The translations under genes and the position numbers were made by a program. Positions 32,091-56,255 of a stretch of 64,000 nucleotides of DNA are shown piece by piece. Origin of the DNA: Nitrospira sp. (GTDB lineage: Bacteria > Nitrospirota > Thermodesulfovibrionia > UBA6902); assembly GCA_016784355.1 (NCBI GenBank), contig JADHUV010000008.1:1-64000 (forward strand), given 5' to 3'. The notes beneath the pieces are model-generated. The model ran no database searches. It was given only the letters and a program-made list of their open reading frames with translations, and had not been told where the DNA came from. Each line of letters starts with the position of its first letter. The stretch's first letter is position 1.

Positions 32091-32102
32091 TCAGAAGATT
32101 AT

Positions 32103-32280
32103 TATTCAGGTGTCCTAACAGACTTAATGGGGAATCCAGTTAAAAACTGGAGCGGACCCGCCGCTGTAATCCCGATTTCCGCTTACTAAGGAATTCACAG
32201 TCTCTAAACATGTACGCCACTTGTCCTGTGACAGGGAAGGCAATTAGAGATCGGGAGAGCCAGAAGACCTGCCTGAATGT
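32103..32280 (+). ncRNA. Adenosylcobalamin riboswitch 1
   Basis: Conserved parts of the cobalamin aptamer are present in order: GGTGTCC, TTAATGGGGAAT, GAGCGGACCCGCCGCTGTAA and the B12 box AGCCAGAAGACCTGCC. P1 is formed by ATTCAGG (32104-32110) and CCTGAAT (32272-32278). It stands before the nine-gene biosynthesis block beginning with cobU. With the terminator at 32342 it should lower transcription when cobalamin is plentiful. Confidence 0.95.
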
Positions 32281-32341
32281 GACCTCACGTGATGACCTTC
32301 GAGGGAAGAGGTTGTGAGGGTAAAGGTGTTTTTGCTTTTAT

Positions 32342-41507: not shown

Positions 41508-41570
41508 CGAACTATTTTTAAATATAAGGAGGTGGGTCAGCACAGCAAATAATTAACTAAATCAATAATA

Positions 41571-41717
41571 CGGGAGCAGGAACGTGGAATGGGGTGTAAA
41601 TCCTCAACTGTCGCGCAACTGTGATGGAAACGAAAACCTGACAGGCCACTGTGCTGATTTTACGGCATGGGAAGGCGGGTTAGTAGGATGTCCAGAGTCA
41701 GGATACCGACTGCTCCT
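41571..41717 (+). ncRNA. Cobalamin riboswitch 2
   Basis: P1 pairs GGAGCAG (41573) with CTGCTCC (41710). Between them are GTGGAATGGGGTGTAAATCC, CAACTGTCGCGCAACTGTGA and a variant B12 box GAGTCAGGATACCGAC. It precedes the outer-membrane and cobalt-transporter genes. No terminator hairpin follows. Instead AAGGAGATG, the ribosome-binding site of the next gene, lies 14 bases away and could pair with the CTCCT of P1, so control is probably at translation. Confidence 0.9.
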
Positions 41718-41743
41718 AAAACCTCGAAAGAAGGAGATGAAAT

Positions 41744-42370
41744 ATGAGAAATATTGCGTTTGCAATAATCGCGGTGTTGGTTTTCAGCATTACGGCATCA
41801 GCCTCTCATCCACTTATAACGGATGATCCAGATACTCTGGGAATGGGCAATTATCAGGTGGAAGTAACAGGTGAGTATTCAGCCGAGGGTGGAGACAGAG
41901 AGACAGAGGCAGGTATAGAGCTTAAATGGAAATTTTATGAACATAATGAATATAGTTTGGCCATTAAGCCGGGAGTGACCCTGGCGACCGGGGATGAAGA
42001 TAAAGGATTCGGAGAAGGCAAGCCGGCTTACAGCGTGGTTATCATTGGGGCAAAGGCAATAGGTGAAGCAGAGATATATATGAATATTGGTTACGTAATA
42101 AACAGGATTGAGCTTAGAGATATGTGGAATTATTCTCTTGCGGGGATTTACGGTATAAGTGAGCATCTAACACTTGTCGTCAATGCAGGAGGAGAAACTA
42201 ACCCGGATATGGCTTCTAATGACCATCCCCTTTTTATTCTTGGAGGGCTGATTTATTCACTCAGTCGCAGCCTGGATATTGATGCCGGGATAAAAGCCGG
42301 ACTTACAGAAGCCGAAAATGATTATTCCTTTCTTGCCGGAATGACATTGAAATTTGGGAGGACACAATGA
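41744..42370 (+). CDS. Putative outer-membrane protein of the cobalt-uptake operon
   Basis: The 208-residue protein has a signal peptide (residues 1-20) and starts its mature part SHPLITDDPDTLGMGNYQVE. It has repeated amphipathic strands and ends LKFGRTQ. It resembles the MetA-pathway/transporter-type outer-membrane barrels (PF13557-like), though short for that group. Lying directly between a cobalamin riboswitch and cbiM, it may let cobalt cross the outer membrane. That role is inferred from position. Confidence 0.65.
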   Translation: MRNIAFAIIAVLVFSITASASHPLITDDPDTLGMGNYQVEVTGEYSAEGGDRETEAGIELKWKFYEHNEYSLAIKPGVTLATGDEDKGFGEGKPAYSVVIIGAKAIGEAEIYMNIGYVINRIELRDMWNYSLAGIYGISEHLTLVVNAGGETNPDMASNDHPLFILGGLIYSLSRSLDIDAGIKAGLTEAENDYSFLAGMTLKFGRTQ

Positions 42371-43113
42371 TAGAAAAAATACTCTTTATAATGCTCATTT
42401 TTATTTCCTTGCCTGAGAAGGCATTTTCGATGCACATATCGGAAGGCATATTGCCGTTTAACTGGGCGGTGATCTGGTTTGCGGTTGCCCTGCCGTTTGT
42501 TGCATACGGGTTAAAGAGGTTCAGGGAACTCTCAAAGGATGATCTGTCCTTTAAGCCGCTTATAGGGCTGCTGGCGGCAATCGTGTTTGTGATATCGCTT
42601 ATGCCTATACCTGTCCCAACTGCTGGTACATGTTCTCATCCGGGCGGTACGGCAATACCTGCAATACTGGTGGGACCTACAGTAAGTATCTTGATTACCG
42701 GGGTTGCCCTTTTAATTCAGGCACTGTTTTTTGCGCATGGCGGACTCAGCACCTGGGGGGCGGATGTTGTATCTATGGGCGTGGTTGGCTCTTTTGTGGG
42801 CATCGGTGTGTTTCGGGGTTTGCGTAAGATGAAGGCAAGTCTCGGGGTCTCTGCTTTTTGTGCCGGTATGTTATCGGACTGGGGAATTTATTTGACGACC
42901 TCTGTTGAATTAGCTGCCGGTATCAGAGGCGATGAGCCTTTCTGGTCGCTTTTCAGTAAAATACTCATAGCCTTTGTACCGACTCAGCTGCCGCTTGGTA
43001 TTGTGGAGGGTGCAATGACGGCCGGTATGGTCACTCTTTTGTTTAAGAGAAGACCGGATATTCTGGCGAAACTCGGTGTTATAAAGCCGGAAGAAGCGGG
43101 GGCGACAGTATGA
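42367..43113 (+). CDS. cbiM: Cobalt ECF transporter S component CbiM
   Basis: The 248-residue membrane protein has an N-terminal signal-like stretch (1-21). The mature start MHISEGILPFNW follows. In CbiM/NikM the freed Met-His N-terminus enters the metal site, so cleavage before that Met fits the known mechanism. Conserved PVPTAGTCSHPGGTAIPAIL and FAHGGLSTWGADV loops are present. It overlaps the upstream gene by four bases. Confidence 0.94.
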   Translation: MIEKILFIMLIFISLPEKAFSMHISEGILPFNWAVIWFAVALPFVAYGLKRFRELSKDDLSFKPLIGLLAAIVFVISLMPIPVPTAGTCSHPGGTAIPAILVGPTVSILITGVALLIQALFFAHGGLSTWGADVVSMGVVGSFVGIGVFRGLRKMKASLGVSAFCAGMLSDWGIYLTTSVELAAGIRGDEPFWSLFSKILIAFVPTQLPLGIVEGAMTAGMVTLLFKRRPDILAKLGVIKPEEAGATV

Positions 43114-43442
43114 TATATCAAATGATAAACGGGGAATTCCCAAAAGCAGGAATTTTGCTTATAGCTGTTTTTTTACTTGTAACGATTTATTCGCCAATGC
43201 TTAATACAGCATCAGCTGCAAAGTGGGGCGGGGTGGATGAAAGCATTGTTGAGAAGTATGCAGAGGAGCACGGAAGACCCCCGAGAGATCCCTTTATCAA
43301 TACGGATCAAGGTGATTTGTTGCTGTTCATGTTTTTGTTGGGCGGCTCAGTAGGAGGTTTTTTTGCAGGTTATTACTGGAGAAAGCTTACAGAAGGCGGA
43401 CCGCGTGCAGCAGAGACCGGTAAGCATCCGGGGGTTAGTTGA
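43110..43442 (+). CDS. cbiN: CbiN-like small membrane component
   Basis: This 110-residue protein has two membrane segments (about 13-35 and 70-88) joined by AKWGGVDESIVEKYAEEHGR and PPRDPFINTDQGD. Small two-helix proteins sit between CbiM and CbiQ in cobalt transporters and help metal loading. Similarity to classical CbiN is weak, so the name rests on position and topology. It overlaps cbiM by four bases. Confidence 0.7.
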   Translation: MIYQMINGEFPKAGILLIAVFLLVTIYSPMLNTASAAKWGGVDESIVEKYAEEHGRPPRDPFINTDQGDLLLFMFLLGGSVGGFFAGYYWRKLTEGGPRAAETGKHPGVS

Positions 43443-44203
43443 TGTCATCGTGTGAATGTTTTTCAGATAATTTCAATCAGGACCATTTTTTGGCCGGAGT
43501 TGATGCCAGGGTTAAATTGCTGGTGGTCTTTGCCCTAATTATAATGGTGCTGAGTTACGGCGGAATATTGTTTCCACTTGTGATTGCAGCAGGTTCGCTT
43601 GCAGCATGTCTGAAAATGAAAGTTCCATATCGGCTTTTGCTGCTGAGATTTGCGCAGCCGCTGTTTATTGCTGTTGTTCTGTTAGTCCTGAAATTATTGT
43701 TTTCAGGACAGGAGGTTTTGTTTTCTGTAAACCTGTTTGGCCTTGAACTTGTTGGGCACAGGGACGGTCTGATGGCTGGTCTGACAATTGCCGCAAGGAT
43801 ATTGGGGGGTGTGTCACTGGTGATTGCGCTGGGTTTTGCGACTCCGTTTCTTCAGTTTGTCAGCGCGCTTTCCTGGCTGCGGGTGCCTCGGGAGTTTATT
43901 GAGATTATGATGTTTGCGTATCGCTACCTGTTCGTTTTTCTTGAGGATGGTATGACAATATATAGTGCCCAGAAAAATCGCCTTGGATATGTCGGTGTGC
44001 GGAAGGGTCTACATTCCTTTGGCATCCTGACAGGTTCGCTGGTCTTGAGAGGTTTTGAACAAAGCCAGAAGACATCAGAGGCAATGATTCAGAGAGGCTA
44101 TACCGGTGATATGCCTTTGATAGAAAGTGTGAAATTTCGGGTGCGTGAGGTCATGATGGCAATGGCCTGTGTGGTTTGTGCGGGGGCTATATGGATAGTG
44201 TAG
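43439..44203 (+). CDS. cbiQ: ECF transporter T component CbiQ
   Basis: The 254-residue protein has five or so membrane helices, the N-terminal DARVKLLVVFALIIMV and the coupling-helix pattern around QSQKTSEAMIQRGYTGDMP near the C-terminus, which contacts the ATPase. It energises CbiM together with CbiO. It overlaps the next gene. Confidence 0.93.
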   Translation: MMSSCECFSDNFNQDHFLAGVDARVKLLVVFALIIMVLSYGGILFPLVIAAGSLAACLKMKVPYRLLLLRFAQPLFIAVVLLVLKLLFSGQEVLFSVNLFGLELVGHRDGLMAGLTIAARILGGVSLVIALGFATPFLQFVSALSWLRVPREFIEIMMFAYRYLFVFLEDGMTIYSAQKNRLGYVGVRKGLHSFGILTGSLVLRGFEQSQKTSEAMIQRGYTGDMPLIESVKFRVREVMMAMACVVCAGAIWIV

Positions 44204-45048
44204 CCAGGATATCTGTTCAGGATGTATTTTATAGATATGCTGATGGTACGGACGCACTTGCGGATATTAATCTAAATATCAGCAGGGGTGCATTTGTCGG
44301 ACTGCTGGGTGCAAATGGCTCGGGAAAGACAACGCTCCTGAGGACGATGGACGGCCTGATTAAATGTTCTTCCGGTACAGTCCTGCTTGATGGTCAGGAT
44401 ATACGCAAGTTGACTCCTAAGGAGATTTACAGCAAGGTCGGTCTTGTATTTCAGAGTCCTGATGATCAGCTCTTTGCACCAACTTTATTTGAGGATGTCG
44501 CCTTCGGACCCTTGAATATGGGCTTAAGTCCGGCAGATGTAGAGTGCAGGGTTTTGCAGGCCCTGGAGGATGTCGAGTTAAGCGGTCTGCAGAAGAAAAA
44601 TGTTCATAACCTCAGTTACGGTCAGCGGAAGCGGGCATGTATAGCAGGTCTGCTTGCAATGGGGCATGAGGTGCTTTTACTGGATGAGCCCACGGCCGGG
44701 CTTGATCCTATGGGAGAGTACCGTATGATGCGGCTTCTGCAAAAGCTGAATAAAGAAAGCGGGGTAACGATCGTTATGGCAACTCATAGTGTTGATCTCG
44801 TGCCTGTATTTCTGGATGAGCTTTCTATACTGAGCAAAGGCAGGATTACACGCGGCGGAACACCTGAAGAGGTCTTTGATGCGCCCGATGATATGGCAGA
44901 TGTAAAGCTTCGGCTGCCTCATATAGCCGAGCTTATATATAAATTGAAGCACGAGGATAAGATGGATTTTGAGCGAGTACCCCTCACCATTGGTGAGGCC
45001 AGACGGGAGATCTTAAGATCTCTCGAATCTTCATTGAAAAGGAGGTGA
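44191..45048 (+). CDS. cbiO: Cobalt ECF transporter ATPase CbiO
   Basis: This is about 285 residues from the ATG at 44191, preferred over the longer frame from 44176 because similarity starts at ISVQDVFYRYADGTDAL. It has Walker A GANGSGKTT, Q-loop VFQSPDDQLFAPT, signature LSYGQRKRACIAG and Walker B VLLLDEPTAGLDP. It powers cobalt uptake. Its last codons contain the AGGAGGTGA that serves as the ribosome-binding site of the peptide gene at 45053. Confidence 0.95.
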   Translation: MDSVARISVQDVFYRYADGTDALADINLNISRGAFVGLLGANGSGKTTLLRTMDGLIKCSSGTVLLDGQDIRKLTPKEIYSKVGLVFQSPDDQLFAPTLFEDVAFGPLNMGLSPADVECRVLQALEDVELSGLQKKNVHNLSYGQRKRACIAGLLAMGHEVLLLDEPTAGLDPMGEYRMMRLLQKLNKESGVTIVMATHSVDLVPVFLDELSILSKGRITRGGTPEEVFDAPDDMADVKLRLPHIAELIYKLKHEDKMDFERVPLTIGEARREILRSLESSLKRR

Positions 45049-45052
45049 CATC

Positions 45053-45193
45053 TTGAAAAAAGTTGCAAAGGTTGAAAAAAAGGTGGCTACCAAAAGCGCT
45101 ATCTCCTACCACATGAAATGTGCCAAGACTGCAAACGGTCTTACTCATTTTGTGATGTATGGTGATGTGCCGAAGAAGAAAATGCCTCTTTGA
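45053..45193 (+). CDS. cbpA: 46-residue peptide precursor (CbpA-like), likely substrate of the adjacent radical SAM enzyme
   Basis: The TTG at 45053 lies 7 bases after AGGAGGTGA, an excellent ribosome-binding site, and four bases after the cbiO stop. The product is Lys-rich at the N-terminus (KKVAKVEKKVATKS) and has a core AISYHMKCAKTANGLTHFVM ending YGDVPKKKMPL. It holds one Cys (C23), two His (H20, H32) and four non-initiator-type Met. A radical SAM/SPASM gene follows 189 bases later. I recall NCBI protein-family models for a cobalamin-gene-linked modified peptide (CbpA) with its enzyme CbpB; this pair fits that description. The modification and role are unknown. The frame is too short for ordinary gene callers. 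Confidence 0.75.
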   Translation: MKKVAKVEKKVATKSAISYHMKCAKTANGLTHFVMYGDVPKKKMPL

Positions 45194-45199
45194 TCAATG

Positions 45200-45240
45200 G
45201 AGACACAGGGTCGGGCGGTATTGCCCGTCCGGCCCGCCTT
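45200..45240 (+). promoter_or_regulatory. GC-rich hairpin between peptide and maturase genes
   Basis: GGTCGGGC and GCCCGTCCGGCC can pair imperfectly about 15 bases after the peptide stop. There is no strong T run, so it may be a partial terminator or mRNA-stabilising hairpin that keeps peptide output above enzyme output. Confidence 0.4.
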
Positions 45241-45381
45241 CTTACAGAGCGTAGCGATTGACGGGTGATGTGTGATGAGTCAGCGTCAGGAAAAAGCTAA
45301 TGCTGCTCTTCAGGCCTAACCCGTTACTTGTAACTGTAAAAAAACAGCAGTACATTAAATGAAAAGGAGACTATAGAAAGA

Positions 45382-46743
45382 ATGAGTTCCAAAAGTAAGA
45401 GCAGTAACGACAAGAATAATACAGGAAGAGGTCTTACATTTTCCAACGTAGATGAAAACTGGAAGTTGGCCCTTGATCCCGAAAATATTTTCTGGAGCAT
45501 CCTGCCCAAGAACGACGGCGAGTTTATGCTTCCTGCAGACCTGATTGATCTTTATAAGAAAGAGATGGATCACTTAAATAAGAAGATGCATGACTTCAGG
45601 TTTAATGAACCGTTGAACTGTGTCTACATTGACCCTACCGACAGGTGCAATGCAAACTGCCCGTACTGCTACATCCCGTCAAAGATCCGGACAGATGGTA
45701 CCCAGATGACCTGGGAGCAGCTTGATCTGGCTTTGAGCAAGGTGGCGGATCATTTCAAAGATGTTAAGAAAAAGCCGGTTATTGTTTATCATGCGGCAGA
45801 GCCTCTGATGGTCAAGGATCTTCTTTTTAAGAGTATCAAAAAATATCATAAGAAGATGCTTTTTGGTATTCAGACCAATGCCCTCCTGCTTGAAAGAGAA
45901 GATGTGGATTTCATCAAGAAATACCGCGTGGGTATCGGCATCTCTTTGGATGCTGCTACAGCAGTTGATAATAATAAATCACGCGTATCCCGTGACGGCG
46001 GCGGTAATTACAAAAAAGCTGTTCAGGCAATTGACTGGTTTAAAAATTATCCAGGCCTGAATGTTATCTGTACCGTGACCAATCTGAATGTTACCAAGCT
46101 TTCGCAGTTGGTGAAATTTCTTCACAAAAAAGAAGTGCCGATGGTTCTGCTGAATCCTGTACGTCTGACTCAAAAGCGTACCGACAAGCTTAAGGCTGAA
46201 GATTCGGAGTATGCAGAGAATCTTATCAAGGCGGTCAACACTTCTATGGAGCTTACCAGGAAGACAGGCAGGCAGATCGTGATCGGCAATTTCGCAAATG
46301 TACTGCTTGCGATTATCTCTCCCACAGCCAGAAGGATGATGTGTGATATCTCTCCCTGCGGCGGCGGTCGGACATTCCTTACGGTAACTGCTGATGGAGC
46401 CATGGTTCCCTGTGGTGAGTTTATCGGGTTTAAGGAATTCTCCGGTGGTAATATTTACAAGACTTCTATTGAAACAGCTATGAACTCCAAGCCGTTTAAA
46501 GAGATCAGGGCCAGAATGGTAGAAAATATCGATGAGTGCGATGTCTGTGATTTTAGACATATATGCGGCTCACCCTGTCCGGCAGAGATGTACGGAAGGG
46601 GAGATATAAATAAAAAGGCCGTGTTCTGTGATTTTTATAAAGAGATTATAAAATATGCCTTTAAGATGATCGCTGAGGATAATGTGAAGTATCTCCTGCG
46701 TGACGATTCTTTGGAGCAGATGCAGTATGAGTATCAGTATTAA
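45382..46743 (+). CDS. cbpB: Radical SAM/SPASM peptide-modifying enzyme (CbpB-like)
   Basis: The 453-residue protein has the radical SAM cluster motif CNANCPYC (C89, C93, C96), followed by a TIM-barrel pattern (YHAAEPLMV, GIQTNALLL, GIGISLDAAT). A SPASM-type C-terminal region with many cysteines follows: MMCDISPCGGGR, VPCGEF, CDVCDFRHICGSPCP and AVFCDF. Enzymes of this layout make thioether or carbon cross-links in ribosomal peptides. The small peptide at 45053 is the obvious substrate. It lies within the cobalt-uptake block just before cbiD, so the product may serve cobalt handling. That link is inferred from position. Confidence 0.85.
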   Translation: MSSKSKSSNDKNNTGRGLTFSNVDENWKLALDPENIFWSILPKNDGEFMLPADLIDLYKKEMDHLNKKMHDFRFNEPLNCVYIDPTDRCNANCPYCYIPSKIRTDGTQMTWEQLDLALSKVADHFKDVKKKPVIVYHAAEPLMVKDLLFKSIKKYHKKMLFGIQTNALLLEREDVDFIKKYRVGIGISLDAATAVDNNKSRVSRDGGGNYKKAVQAIDWFKNYPGLNVICTVTNLNVTKLSQLVKFLHKKEVPMVLLNPVRLTQKRTDKLKAEDSEYAENLIKAVNTSMELTRKTGRQIVIGNFANVLLAIISPTARRMMCDISPCGGGRTFLTVTADGAMVPCGEFIGFKEFSGGNIYKTSIETAMNSKPFKEIRARMVENIDECDVCDFRHICGSPCPAEMYGRGDINKKAVFCDFYKEIIKYAFKMIAEDNVKYLLRDDSLEQMQYEYQY

Positions 46744-46814
46744 AGAAACCGTAAGCAGTTGTTAGTCTTAAATTAAAGCATCCTCTCCCTTTGGGGAGGG
46801 GATGTCATTTTTTA

Positions 46815-47909
46815 ATGAGAGAAAAGAAAAAACTCAGATCAGGATATACAACTGGAGCGTGTGCCGCCGCGGCTGCAAAGGCAGCGTCCATGCTTGCTAT
46901 TGGGCATATCTCTAGCGTTACGTCCATTGATATTCCTTTTCCCGATGGAAGCCGCCACGAATTTCATATACATGCATCAGGTCTGAATAGAGATGGCCGC
47001 TCCGCCTGGGCTTCTGTAATTAAGGATGCCGGAGATGATCCTGATATCACGAACGGGGCCGAGATAAGGGCGGATGCTGTAATGATTGAAAGTGCAGGAC
47101 TCTTGATAAAGGGCGGTAAGGGTGTAGGCACTGTAACGAAACCGGGTCTGGCGATAGCACCCGGAGAACCTGCTATAAATCCTATACCACGAAAGATGAT
47201 CGCGGCAGCAATTGCAGAAGTTGCTGGCCCTGGATCTCCCGGAGCTGATATAGCAGGAATTGAAATAACCATTTCCGTAGCTGATGGTGAAAGACTTGCC
47301 GAGAAAACCCTGAACAGACGCTTAGGCATCATCGGCGGGATCTCGATTTTAGGTTCCACAGGCATTGTAAAGCCTGTCTCTACGGAGGCCTGGACTGCCA
47401 CAATTACTTCTTCGATGGATGTAGCAAAGGCCGCGGGCTTAAGTGAAATCGTAGTATCTGCCGGCCGTGCTTCAGAGCGCGCTCATATGGAAAAGTTTCA
47501 TATGCCGGAGGAGGCCTATGTGCTTATGGGTGATTACCTTGAGTACTCTATAAAGGATGCAGTGAAGCATGGTTTTAAGAAAATTCATCTTTGCGCTCAG
47601 TGGGCAAAAATGGTGAAGATCGCAATGGCTACTCCGCAGACACATGTAAGGTTCGGGGCTATAGATATTGCACAGGCTGTGGAATTTTTCAATTTAAATG
47701 GTATTGCAGTACCGCGTGACCGGGAGTTTAATACTGCCCGCGAGATATTTGATTTTATCCGGGCCGGAAATACAGGGCCTGATCTGGACGCACCCCTGCA
47801 AGCCGCCTGCACAGCGGCAAAGTTGTATGCTGAGCAGATAGCAGAAAAGGTTACAGTGCAGACGTATCTTGTTTCTTATGACAATAAAATAATTATGCAG
47901 AGCAATTAA
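46815..47909 (+). CDS. cbiD: Cobalt-precorrin-5B C1-methyltransferase
   Basis: The ATG at 46815 gives MREKKKLRSGYTTGACAAAA, the diagnostic CbiD start. The longer frame begins at a TTG inside a GC-rich hairpin and purine run. The 364-residue enzyme methylates C1 after ring contraction and has GGKGVGTVTKPGLAI, NPIPRKMI and LGSTGIVKPVS. The last 90 bases are partly duplicated at 49655-49740. Confidence 0.95.
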   Translation: MREKKKLRSGYTTGACAAAAAKAASMLAIGHISSVTSIDIPFPDGSRHEFHIHASGLNRDGRSAWASVIKDAGDDPDITNGAEIRADAVMIESAGLLIKGGKGVGTVTKPGLAIAPGEPAINPIPRKMIAAAIAEVAGPGSPGADIAGIEITISVADGERLAEKTLNRRLGIIGGISILGSTGIVKPVSTEAWTATITSSMDVAKAAGLSEIVVSAGRASERAHMEKFHMPEEAYVLMGDYLEYSIKDAVKHGFKKIHLCAQWAKMVKIAMATPQTHVRFGAIDIAQAVEFFNLNGIAVPRDREFNTAREIFDFIRAGNTGPDLDAPLQAACTAAKLYAEQIAEKVTVQTYLVSYDNKIIMQSN

Positions 47910-48438: not shown

Positions 48439-48757
48439 ATGGGTGCTGTCAAAGCTCCATTAGAATATGCGGGATCATATTATCATAATACCTCAAGAGG
48501 TAACGAAAGAAAGAGCATCTATAGAAGCAATAAAGATAGAGAGCAGTTTCTCTCATATCTAAAGTCCGCTTACCTGAAATATGGGGCACTCATTTTGCAT
48601 AAATATAGTGATAAACGGCTAAAGGAAATAGGGGGAATACTTCAGCATTGGCGAGTCTGCGGTATCAGAGGCAAGCAGACAATTCAGTATTAATTTGAAA
48701 AAGAATAAAAAGCTGCGAGGAACAGTAGAAGTGATTTGCAAACAATTAAATTACTGA
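48439..48757 (+). pseudogene. REP-associated tyrosine transposase (RAYT) remnant
   Basis: The N-terminal part reads YAGSYYHNTSRGNERKSIYR and SNKDREQFLSYLKSAY, the RAYT/IS200-like start, but the His-x-His and catalytic Tyr region is deleted. After HKYSDKRLKEIGG the frame shifts, and the original C-terminus, FSIGESAVSEASRQFS then LKKNKKLRGTVEVICKQLNY, is found in another frame ending at 48757. The remnant is flanked by 21-base inverted repeats and sits next to REP-like palindromes, the structures these enzymes handle. Confidence 0.8.
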
Positions 48758-48780
48758 AGAATGGAGCTTTGACACCACCC
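48441..48780. repeat. Inverted repeats flanking the RAYT remnant
   Basis: The left copy GGGTGCTGTCAAAGCTCCAT (48441-48460) matches the reverse complement of 48761-48780 at all but one position. A further copy of the right repeat lies in the tandem duplication ending at 48823. Confidence 0.85.
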
Positions 48781-48823
48781 GCAAACAATTAAATTACTGA
48801 AGAATGGAGCTTTGACACCACCC
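48738..48823 (+). repeat. Exact 43-base tandem duplication
   Basis: Positions 48738-48780 and 48781-48823 are identical. The unit covers the last codons of the RAYT remnant and the right inverted repeat. Identity suggests a recent event, in contrast to the decayed surroundings. Confidence 0.95.
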
Positions 48824-48836
48824 GCTAGTTAATTCA

Positions 48837-48873: not shown

Positions 48874-49131
48874 ATGAAAACAGAATTAGTGACAACACTA
48901 AAAAGACAGGCAACAAAAATACTTTCTGAGCTACATGAAACGAAAGAAACAGTATTAATTACTGAGCACGGAAGGCCTTCTGCTTACCTGGTGGATGCAG
49001 ATGCATATGAGATGATGGAAAATCGTATGAAGATCCTGGAAGGTATAGCAAGGGGTGAGCTGGCTATATTGGAAAATCGAGTTATAAAGCATTCCGATGC
49101 GAAGAAAATTATGAATAAATGGCTCGGTTGA
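48874..49131 (+). CDS. Phd/YefM-family antitoxin
   Basis: The 85-residue protein has LKRQATKILSELHETKETVL then ITEHGRPSAYLVDADAYEMM, the Phd/YefM fold with the conserved G-R-P-x-A-Y-L turn. The C-terminal part (IKHSDAKKIMNKWLG) should bind the toxin. It overlaps the ParE/RelE toxin gene by 13 bases. There is no good ribosome-binding site, in line with a near-leaderless message. Confidence 0.88.
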   Translation: MKTELVTTLKRQATKILSELHETKETVLITEHGRPSAYLVDADAYEMMENRMKILEGIARGELAILENRVIKHSDAKKIMNKWLG

Positions 49132-49442
49132 TTTGGTCGGAGTCGGCACTTTCAGATCTTGATGAAATAGCGGAGTATATTGCATTAGATGATCTGAGTG
49201 CAGCAAAAAAGCTAGTTCAAACGATCTTCCAAAAGCTTGAACGCCTAGAGCAGCATCCTCAGTCAGGTCGCAGGCTTCCTGAGCTTAAGAAGACCTCATA
49301 TCGAGAAGTGATAGCTAATCCCTGTCGAATTATTTACAGAGTAGACAAAAAAGACATATATATATTGCATGTCATACGTGGGGAGAGCCAACTCAGGAAG
49401 TATATGCTGGAAGAAAGAGACAAAAAAACAAAGAAGAAATAA
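49119..49442 (+). CDS. ParE/RelE-superfamily toxin
   Basis: The 107-residue protein reads LIWSESALSDLDEIAEYIAL then DDLSAAKKLVQTIFQKLERL, EQHPQSGRRLPEL, YREVIANPCRIIYRVDKKDI and YILHVIRGE. That order is typical of ParE/RelE toxins. The Lys-rich end (DKKTKKK) is unusual. Target (gyrase or mRNA) is not decidable. The antitoxin is translated first, in contrast to the pairs near 1200 and 2600. Confidence 0.9.
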   Translation: MARLIWSESALSDLDEIAEYIALDDLSAAKKLVQTIFQKLERLEQHPQSGRRLPELKKTSYREVIANPCRIIYRVDKKDIYILHVIRGESQLRKYMLEERDKKTKKK

Positions 49443-54953: not shown

Positions 54954-56255
54954 ATGACTTCCAATAAAAAAAATAAAGCCGCCTTCCTCTGGGATGAATC
55001 CTTTTTATGGGGTCTTATGGCATATAAAGCCCTCTGCACCTCCGGCCTGCCGTTTGAATTAATCAGAGCTGAAGATATAAGAAAAGGTGCTCTGGATGAA
55101 TATCCGATGCTTTTTGTGCCGGGTGGATGGGCATCGAATAAGAGCGGTGCTCTTGGTGAAAAAGGTTTGGACGCCATCAGGCAGTTTGTTGAAAAAGGCG
55201 GAAGCTATCTTGGTTTCTGCGGTGGTGCCGGCCTTGCAACAAATGCCAGGGGTTGTCTGGGTCTGCTGGATGTAGACAGAAAGCCTACCAATGAAAGGGT
55301 CCCGAGTTTCAGCGGCAGGATAGAATTGAAGCTTCATGAGCATGAAATATGGACAGCAGACTCTCCCGCAGTTATATCAAAAGATAGCATAGAAGATGAT
55401 CTGCCAATCGTTACACATAAAACTTCCGGCATATATCATGCGTGGTGGCCTTCCCAGTTTACGATTAAAGACAGCAATATAAAGGTCCTGGCAAGTTATG
55501 GTAAGGCCATGCCTGATTCTTTTAGTTCTGACCTTAATGTCGGAGATGTCCGCAATAGCTGCAGTTGGCATGAGCTGGAGGAACAATATAAAATCAATCT
55601 TGACCCCGGAAAACTTTTTGATGAACCCGCGGTAATAGAGGGGAAATACGGCAGAGGCAGGGTCATGATCTCACTCGTCCATTTTGATACTCAAGGAGAT
55701 CCTGAAGGAGCTCAGGCTCTTGAAAGAATCTGGTCTTATCTGGGAGGTCTTGTCCCGGCCAGTGAAAAAAACACCGCTACTGTAGTGTCCTGTGGACGAG
55801 AGAAGGATGCTGTTCGAGTTGCCGGGGAACTATATGCTATATCACGCGAGCTTGTTTCCTTGGGAGAGAGGAATTTTCTCTGGTTTTGGCGAAATGCAAT
55901 GCTCCTTCATTGGCGGCGCGGGGTCCGGGGACTGGAATATAATACGTTGTTTATCATGATAAGAGAGATATTTGAGCAGGCCCGAAACGGTAGTGATATC
56001 AGTGTGGATGATCTTAAAATGATCCGGAGGCCTCTAAAGGAATTTGCCTTGAAGGCAGCCAAACTGTTAGTGCTGGAGCGGTTTGAGATGCAGAAAGGGA
56101 ATTTTATGACATTTGCCGATTGTGATAATCCTGAGGTCAGGGTCTTGCGAGGCGAGCTTTTTTCGGCATCGAAAAGTCATGGGGGCAGGTTTAAGGAGTT
56201 GCTTGATATTACCGACAGCTGCCTTATACGAATACTTACGGGGAATGAAGGTTGA
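54954..56255 (+). CDS. BPL-N (amidotransferase-like) domain protein
   Basis: The 433-residue protein begins with a class-I glutamine-amidotransferase-like domain of BPL-N type: AAFLWDESFLWGLMAYKALC, MLFVPGGWASNKSG and YLGFCGGAGLATN, with a possible nucleophile Cys in the last. It runs to about residue 270. The rest is helical, without recognised motif. BPL-N domains occur on biotin-protein ligases, but no ligase domain is present here. It follows cbiH by 70 bases on the same strand, so a role in corrinoid metabolism is possible but unproven. Confidence 0.65.
   Translation: MTSNKKNKAAFLWDESFLWGLMAYKALCTSGLPFELIRAEDIRKGALDEYPMLFVPGGWASNKSGALGEKGLDAIRQFVEKGGSYLGFCGGAGLATNARGCLGLLDVDRKPTNERVPSFSGRIELKLHEHEIWTADSPAVISKDSIEDDLPIVTHKTSGIYHAWWPSQFTIKDSNIKVLASYGKAMPDSFSSDLNVGDVRNSCSWHELEEQYKINLDPGKLFDEPAVIEGKYGRGRVMISLVHFDTQGDPEGAQALERIWSYLGGLVPASEKNTATVVSCGREKDAVRVAGELYAISRELVSLGERNFLWFWRNAMLLHWRRGVRGLEYNTLFIMIREIFEQARNGSDISVDDLKMIRRPLKEFALKAAKLLVLERFEMQKGNFMTFADCDNPEVRVLRGELFSASKSHGGRFKELLDITDSCLIRILTGNEG

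Follow-up and report, generated by a model that had tools for sequence, protein, structure and literature searches.

A 64,000-nucleotide stretch of contig JADHUV010000008.1 from Nitrospira sp. (assembly GCA_016784355.1; this whole stretch is referred to as the window) carries a two-gene unit, cbpAB, within its vitamin B12 genes. cbpA encodes a 46-residue precursor peptide that forms a divergent branch of the CbpA type, and cbpB encodes a radical S-adenosylmethionine (SAM)/SPASM peptide maturase. Comparison of the pair across bacteria and archaea indicates that CbpAB is an accessory of cobamide metabolism and is not tied only to the uptake or insertion of cobalt. With a probability of roughly 0.5, we read its product as a modified intracellular peptide that serves cobamide assembly or salvage and is made when B12 is scarce.

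The CbpA peptide and the CbpB enzyme

The window enzyme scored 497.8 bits against the NCBIfam CbpB model TIGR04163 (cut-off 375) and has a small precursor gene adjacent to it, which supports the pairing of a ribosomal peptide with a radical SAM/SPASM maturase proposed in an earlier note on this DNA. The family names given in that note do exist, as TIGR04164 (CbpA, cobo_pep) and TIGR04163. The window peptide itself gave no NCBIfam or Pfam match even at E ≤ 10, the CbpA model TIGR04164 (curated cut-off, 35 bits) included. Peptides from other loci bridge it to that model, scoring 14 (L077), 15 (L013), 30 (L082), and 47 to 49 bits (L001, L002, and L083), and an alignment of 30 CbpA sequences shows that it shares the core motif C-x5-G-L-x-H-[FY] next to CbpB. 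It differs from TIGR04164 members in three respects: the Gly-x that precedes GL is replaced by Ala-Asn, the C terminus carries an additional YGDVPKKKMPL, and the leader is longer. The CbpB tree has three lineages (window-type, classical, and archaeal), each with a matching CbpA subtype; window-type enzymes fall outside the clade of classical members, which score 660 to 706 bits, and are 37 to 41% identical to them, with all cluster Cys retained in the window enzyme. By motif and position, then, the window peptide is a divergent and unannotated branch of CbpA.

cbpA was found 5' of cbpB in 79 of 85 distinct loci (77 by the motif frame, L107 and L127 by eye), well beyond what chance would give; at the remaining six, the upstream sequence is cut off by a contig end or interrupted by Ns. 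Wherever the upstream region is intact, CbpA adjoins CbpB. In the 28-codon window-type core (37 sequences), the proportions of synonymous and nonsynonymous differences were pS 0.83 and pN 0.07, giving a pN/pS of 0.086, compared with 0.18 for the classical core, 0.08 for the archaeal core, and 0.49 for the leader. Because the core is so strongly constrained and orthologues recur upstream of the enzyme, comparative analysis identifies the window peptide as a real translated gene, the C-terminal two thirds of which are strongly constrained. Both comparisons that the earlier note had named as checks thus came out in its favor: small frames around CbpB homologues yielded an upstream orthologue in nearly every locus, and they align as a conserved core (from about residue 17 in the window) behind a variable, Lys-rich leader. 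The strong ribosome-binding site described there is also present, with AGGAGGTGA at 45040-45048 and 7 nt between GGAGG and the TTG start, and the Shine-Dalgarno (SD) sequence, often with the TTG start too, is kept in window-type relatives. The frame does not overlap cbiO as had been stated, since the cbiO stop codon (45046-45048) ends before the peptide begins at 45053; the coordinates of both genes otherwise stand, as does their placement between cbiO and cbiD.

The peptide has the composition reported for it: one Cys (C23), two His (H20 and H32), and Met at positions 21, 35, and 44. From bacteria to archaea, C23, G29, L30, and H32 are the invariant residues after Met1, with Arg or His at position 20 and Phe or Tyr at position 33. 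This weakens the suggestion of a His- and Met-rich metal site, as H20 is mostly Arg in relatives and Met44 is lost, and leaves C23 and H32, which may bind cobalt or a corrinoid.

CbpB follows the radical SAM SPASM pattern CxxxCxxC plus C-x12-G-x4-C...C-x2-C-x5-C-x3-C...C, in agreement with Pfam. Beyond the CNANCPYC motif (C89, C93, and C96), the alignment, from which the protein of the Methylovirgula plasmid (L105) was left out, contains eight further invariant Cys (C321, C326, C344, C386, C389, C395, C399, and C416), substantiating the several Cys clusters noticed earlier; C321 is the one that brings the SPASM set to eight. An AlphaFold2 model (predicted local distance difference test score, 90.5) found its best matches among solved folds in CteB, anSME, ChlB, TigE, and SuiB. 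These enzymes act on peptides or proteins, several of them at Cys. A literature search on the ChlB radical SAM structure gave no match. No PqqD-like recognition element (RRE) for a ribosomally synthesized and post-translationally modified peptide (RiPP) was recognized in CbpB, for which Pfam gives Radical_SAM and SPASM only; in the model, the N-terminal part folds into three strands plus a single long helix. An RRE is absent from many RiPP systems.

Among solved structures, the SCIFF thioether maturase CteB (5wgg and 5why) is the best match to CbpB in both sequence and fold, but it has no Cys aligned to C321, and CbpA has one Cys where SCIFF has six; in line with this, CbpB reached only 86.6 of the 425 bits set for TIGR03974 and is not a SCIFF maturase. 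The second-best family match was PapB, a ranthipeptide maturase (NF047865), at 134.6 bits with a cut-off of 340. CbpA lacks the CX3D motif of PapA (PMC9413430), or a CX3E, with neither Asp nor Glu at the fourth position after C23, and so falls outside the ranthipeptides. anSME (4k36-4k39) gave target-normalized template modelling (TM) scores of 0.83 to 0.84 to CbpB and shares the eight SPASM Cys, which in anSME ligate two auxiliary clusters (PMC5682303). It differs in substrate, as that of CbpB is not a sulfatase and has no CxPxR motif, and CbpB has an N-terminal extension of about 75 residues.

A hairpin follows cbpA in the window; most loci have one at this place, with sequences that are unrelated. 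Among loci with a cbpA-cbpB spacer of at least 55 nt, 43 of 50 had a stem of 9 or more base pairs within 80 nt; of the co-directional gaps taken as controls from loci of this kind, 15 of 84 did (P = 4e-15, without correction for kinship). In the window, the 200-nt region after cbpA folds better than all 200 shuffles, and the first 80 nt alone are not outstanding (z = -0.88). A plain terminator was rejected for most loci, where the T-run is absent; because of this, the hairpin is probably an mRNA-stabilizing or processing element, which suggests that the peptide is made in excess over the enzyme.

Riboswitch placement, gene neighborhood, and distribution

The cobalamin riboswitch reported upstream was confirmed at 70 bits, 5' of cbiMNQO-cbpAB in the window, and in seven genomes a cobalamin riboswitch stands directly before cbpA (L096, L078 [also L103], L146, L149, L151, L153, and L162). 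By reading, a T-run hairpin lies between aptamer and cbpA in L096, L078, and L151, which we take to resemble a transcription-terminating expression platform. In L146, L149, and L151, cbpAB heads a cobC-cobU-cobT-cobS-cobD operon; L096, L078, and L153 are stand-alone riboswitch-cbpAB pairs with no B12 gene seen nearby, and therefore cbpAB itself is the regulated unit there. The pair comes with a riboswitch or a B12 cluster, except at the archaeal loci, on the Methylovirgula plasmid, and in one genome (G558). In L078 (6263-6760), an N gap in front of cbpA separates partial repeats of the riboswitch region, which are either a product of the assembly or two riboswitches in tandem.

Gene neighborhoods were counted in 64 distinct loci whose flanks extend for 2.5 kb or more on each side, scoring genes within -5/+4 kb in a sample that leans to Nitrospirota. 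At least one B12 gene was present in 52 loci and a late or salvage gene in 41; any cobalt energy-coupling factor (ECF) gene was present in 27, and the pair directly followed cbiO in 24. Linkage to cbiMNQO is thus not conserved, and cobalt uptake is not what these loci have in common. Placement after cbiO requires 8 changes on the CbpB tree, at least 6 of them forced by supported branches: L032, whose CbpB is closest to the window enzyme along the tree and 85% identical to it, has the pair after cobD, and L031 has it after cbiO. Elsewhere the pair sits in salvage operons, namely CobT-CobS-CbiB-CobD-AsnB-CbpAB-DUF71-BtuF-BtuC (L145 and L148), BtuFCD-CobC-CobU-CbpAB-CobT-CobS (L159), and CobU-CobT-CobS-CobC-CobQ-CbiB-CobD-CbiX-CbpAB (L091), and in L013/L095 it lies between cobT and cobS. 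Together with the stand-alone pairs and with carriers that lack CbiC and sometimes CbiM (below), this does not support a role tied to cobalt uptake. No exporter, immunity gene, or peptidase was found to recur next to cbpAB among the loci examined.

DUF71 lies directly 3' of CbpB in L094, L145, L148, and L160. Known DUF71-B12 salvage proteins share this type of neighborhood, with BtuCDF and CbiB (PMC3541065), but are unrelated to CbpB, and the part of that source consulted gives no radical SAM or peptide partner for them. AsnB-like and DUF71/COG2102 proteins flank cbpAB in corrinoid-salvage operons (L145:3815-7128, L148:3827-7025, and L094:324-3541), an arrangement that looks like a conserved salvage module.

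CbpB scored over the cut-off in 47 of 200 relatives, 18 of 145 Omnitrophota, 3 of 246 Planctomycetota genomes, and 11 of 23 genomes of one archaeal phylum (Bathyarchaeia-like), as well as on one Methylovirgula plasmid that is annotated cbpA/cbpB. On that plasmid (L105:11179-12711), pqqA, pqqD, and pqqE, another radical SAM locus of RiPP type, lie near the classical cbpAB. Among 69 tested relatives of the same class, CbiC was present in 41 of 47 CbpB carriers versus 7 of 22 non-carriers and CobS in 46 of 47 versus 15 of 22, in a comparison that takes no account of kinship; outside the class, 31 of 33 carriers have CobS. Strict dependence on de novo corrin synthesis was rejected, as CbiC is absent from 6 of the 47 carriers within the class and from 11 of the 18 in Omnitrophota, three of which also lack CbiM. 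Carriers without CbiM are G009, G024, G548, G511, and G614. At 98% and 97% completeness, G009 and G024 encode CbpB and CobS, with CbiC, CbiD, and CbiM not found, and G548, an Omnitrophota genome without CbiC and CbiM, is a 1.6-Mb genome with a 1.55-Mb contig. Because such carriers exist and many CbiD-positive relatives lack CbpB, the pair is an accessory of cobamide metabolism.

The B12 supercluster of the window

The window holds a contiguous B12 supercluster (Table 1). It opens with one riboswitch, followed by cobU, cobT, cobS, cobC, cobQ, cbiB, cobD, cbiA, and cbiXC; the second riboswitch-led part comprises an outer-membrane-like protein, cbiM, the cbiN-like gene, cbiQ, cbiO, cbpA, and cbpB; and the end consists of cbiD, an interruption, and then cbiE/T, cbiL, cbiF, cbiG, cbiH, and a BPL_N-like protein. 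Gene names come from NCBIfam and Pfam where scanned and otherwise from sequence reading and blast labels between loci.

Table 1 Features of the window, with the evidence for each
Feature	Position	Strand	Evidence or remark
Cobalamin riboswitch opening the supercluster	32091-32290		91 bits; 5' of cobU
Cobalamin riboswitch aptamer	41560-41728	+	Rfam RF00174, 70.4 bits (gathering 31.5); 5' of the segment holding cbpAB
208-residue protein, Phenol_MetA_deg family	41744-42370	+	PF13557, E 2.4e-10; first gene 3' of the aptamer; probable outer-membrane barrel
cbiM, cobalt ECF substrate component	42367-43113	+	TIGR00123, 184.6 bits; PF01891
Divergent cbiN-like subunit	43110-43442	+	Weak TIGR01165 match (E 0.01); between cbiM and cbiQ
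cbiQ	43439-44203	+	TIGR02454, 151 bits, over cut-off
cbiO	44176-45048	+	TIGR01166, 223 bits, over cut-off; open reading frame (ORF) as listed, true start may lie further inside
cbpA ribosome-binding site AAAAGGAGGTGA	45037-45048	+	Within last cbiO codons and stop; sequence; SD recurs in relatives
cbpA, 46-residue precursor peptide, TTG start	45053-45193	+	Homologues 5' of cbpB; pN/pS
Conserved core SYHMKCAKTANGLTHFVMYGDVPKKKMPL	45104-45190	+	Alignment of 30 CbpA; C23 at 45119-45121, H32 at 45146-45148, also G29 and L30
Hairpin 15 nt 3' of cbpA	45208-45235	+	11-bp stem GGGTCGGGCGG/CCGTCCGGCCC, between cbpA and cbpB
cbpB, radical SAM/SPASM peptide maturase, 453 residues	45382-46743	+	TIGR04163; Pfam Radical_SAM and SPASM
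Terminator-like hairpin between cbpB and cbiD	46778-46805	+	12-pair stem, then TTTTTT
cbiD	46791-47909	+	TIGR00312, 331 bits; listed from TTG, first ATG at 46815

The interruption holds a RelB/YefM-like gene followed by a RelE/ParE-like gene (48874-49442, by eye), a probable type II toxin-antitoxin pair that splits the cbi cluster. A possible REP-type transposase remnant stands at 48439-48830, with a direct repeat of some 45 bp present twice after it. The 433-residue protein with the BPL_N match (54954-56255) recurs beside cbiH at the ends of cbi operons. Several neighbors of cbpAB in other loci are also worth recording. In Nitrospirota, a stand-alone tetrapyrrole methylase and an HD-domain protein lie 3' of cbpB (L091:9832-11297, L102:6427-7904, and L040:8353-10279); the methylase of L040 is fused to CbiX, and the same arrangement occurs in G024, which lacks CbiC and CbiD. 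A CobF-like methyltransferase, named by eye, occupies the place where other loci have cbiD (L058:8844-9605 and L098:10266-11024), which suggests that it replaces cbiD at the C-1 methylation step. In L044 (95-1054), cbpAB and BtuC/D/F-like genes have near them a gene for a CbiK-like chelatase, which seems to carry a signal peptide.

Candidate roles of the CbpA peptide

In the reading that we favor, low B12 would let the riboswitch permit transcription of cbpAB alongside the B12 genes. CbpB, which carries Cys ligands apparently sufficient for two fully ligated auxiliary Fe-S clusters, would act on the invariant CxxxxxGLxH[FY] core. The single Cys is the most likely site, and the product there would be a thioether or a different cross-link of the C-S or C-C kind. 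We infer that the mature peptide stays in the cell, given the stand-alone pairs and the lack of any recurring exporter, immunity gene, or peptidase. It would not be specific to the cobalt importer and would act in steps common to de novo makers and salvagers, because the pair is present in both; reduction with adenosylation and the nucleotide loop are such steps. The modified Cys and the invariant His would then hold or reduce the corrinoid (or its cobalt) for adenosylation or nucleotide-loop assembly. We propose, somewhat more tentatively than the reading as a whole, that in bacteria and archaea alike the ribosomal, radical-SAM-modified peptide works as an intracellular corrinoid-binding or redox cofactor in the assembly and salvage of cobamides, a class of factor not known from B12 biology.

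The earlier note had named a cobalt chaperone or cobaltophore as possible; such a modified peptide would bind Co(II) through Cys and His and pass it from CbiMNQO to the cobaltochelatase CbiX. The invariant Cys and His would suit this role, as would the position after cbiO in the window and in 24 of the 64 loci and the presence of cbiX or cbiXC near cbpAB in 36 of them (directly beside it in L087, L090, L091, and L104). We nevertheless consider it unlikely, since cbpAB heads salvage operons that contain no cobalt step, carriers exist without CbiC or CbiM, the position after cbiO has changed repeatedly even between near relatives, and no export gene recurs. Slightly less likely still is a small molecule made from CbpA as PQQ (pyrroloquinoline quinone) is from PqqA, with CbpB forming the first cross-link and proteases freeing a redox cofactor or an unusual lower ligand. 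SPASM enzymes do make PQQ and mycofactocin, and the tiny, highly conserved core centered on C..GL.H[FY], the classical cbpAB near pqqADE on the Methylovirgula plasmid, and the pair between cobT and cobS fit such a product; against it, no protease or further tailoring gene recurs, and the roughly 28 conserved codons of the window-type core go beyond the needs of a two-residue product.

We give little credence to a B12-sparing factor, a product that replaces a B12-dependent function at low B12 and sits in these operons through co-regulation only. The stand-alone riboswitch-cbpAB operons and the many B12 makers without CbpAB would agree with it, but the pair has been inserted repeatedly into B12 synthesis and salvage operons across unrelated phyla, and nearly all carriers have CobS. 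That CbpA is an ordinary secreted RiPP, a bacteriocin or signal in the operon by chance, is hardly credible: the Lys-rich leader and radical SAM/SPASM maturase are common to many RiPPs, but the core is nearly invariant across phyla, no transporter, immunity gene, or peptidase was found, and a B12 riboswitch is in control.

Several points weigh against a role in cobamide assembly or salvage as well. CbpB is absent from 68 CbiD-positive relatives, and many B12 makers and salvagers lack CbpAB; it is therefore not essential to the pathway. Most of the genomes are metagenome-assembled, which makes absences soft. The neighbors single out no one B12 reaction, the frequency of cbiX keeps a link to cobalt insertion alive, and no B12 neighbors or riboswitch were found at the archaeal loci or on the Methylovirgula plasmid. 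Every biochemical step set out above is, moreover, a proposal drawn from sequence.

The families TIGR04163 and TIGR04164 were already known. Our search of the literature (open access, with few subscription journals and preprints) found no study of CbpA/CbpB or of a cobalamin-linked radical SAM peptide, and the text matches for these names that were followed were digital object identifier (DOI) strings. New here are the unannotated CbpA branch, direct riboswitch control, the salvage context, the archaeal members, and the hairpin after cbpA. The synthesis and salvage of B12 are regarded as a pathway whose enzymes and transporters have been worked out; if our reading is true, that pathway has lacked one component, a conserved, directly riboswitch-controlled modified peptide that occurs in Nitrospirota, Omnitrophota, and Planctomycetota, on a proteobacterial plasmid, and in Bathyarchaeia-like archaea. 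A pair of only two genes, a core of 16 to 28 residues, and salvage-only carriers that separate corrinoid handling from cobalt uptake make the question directly testable.
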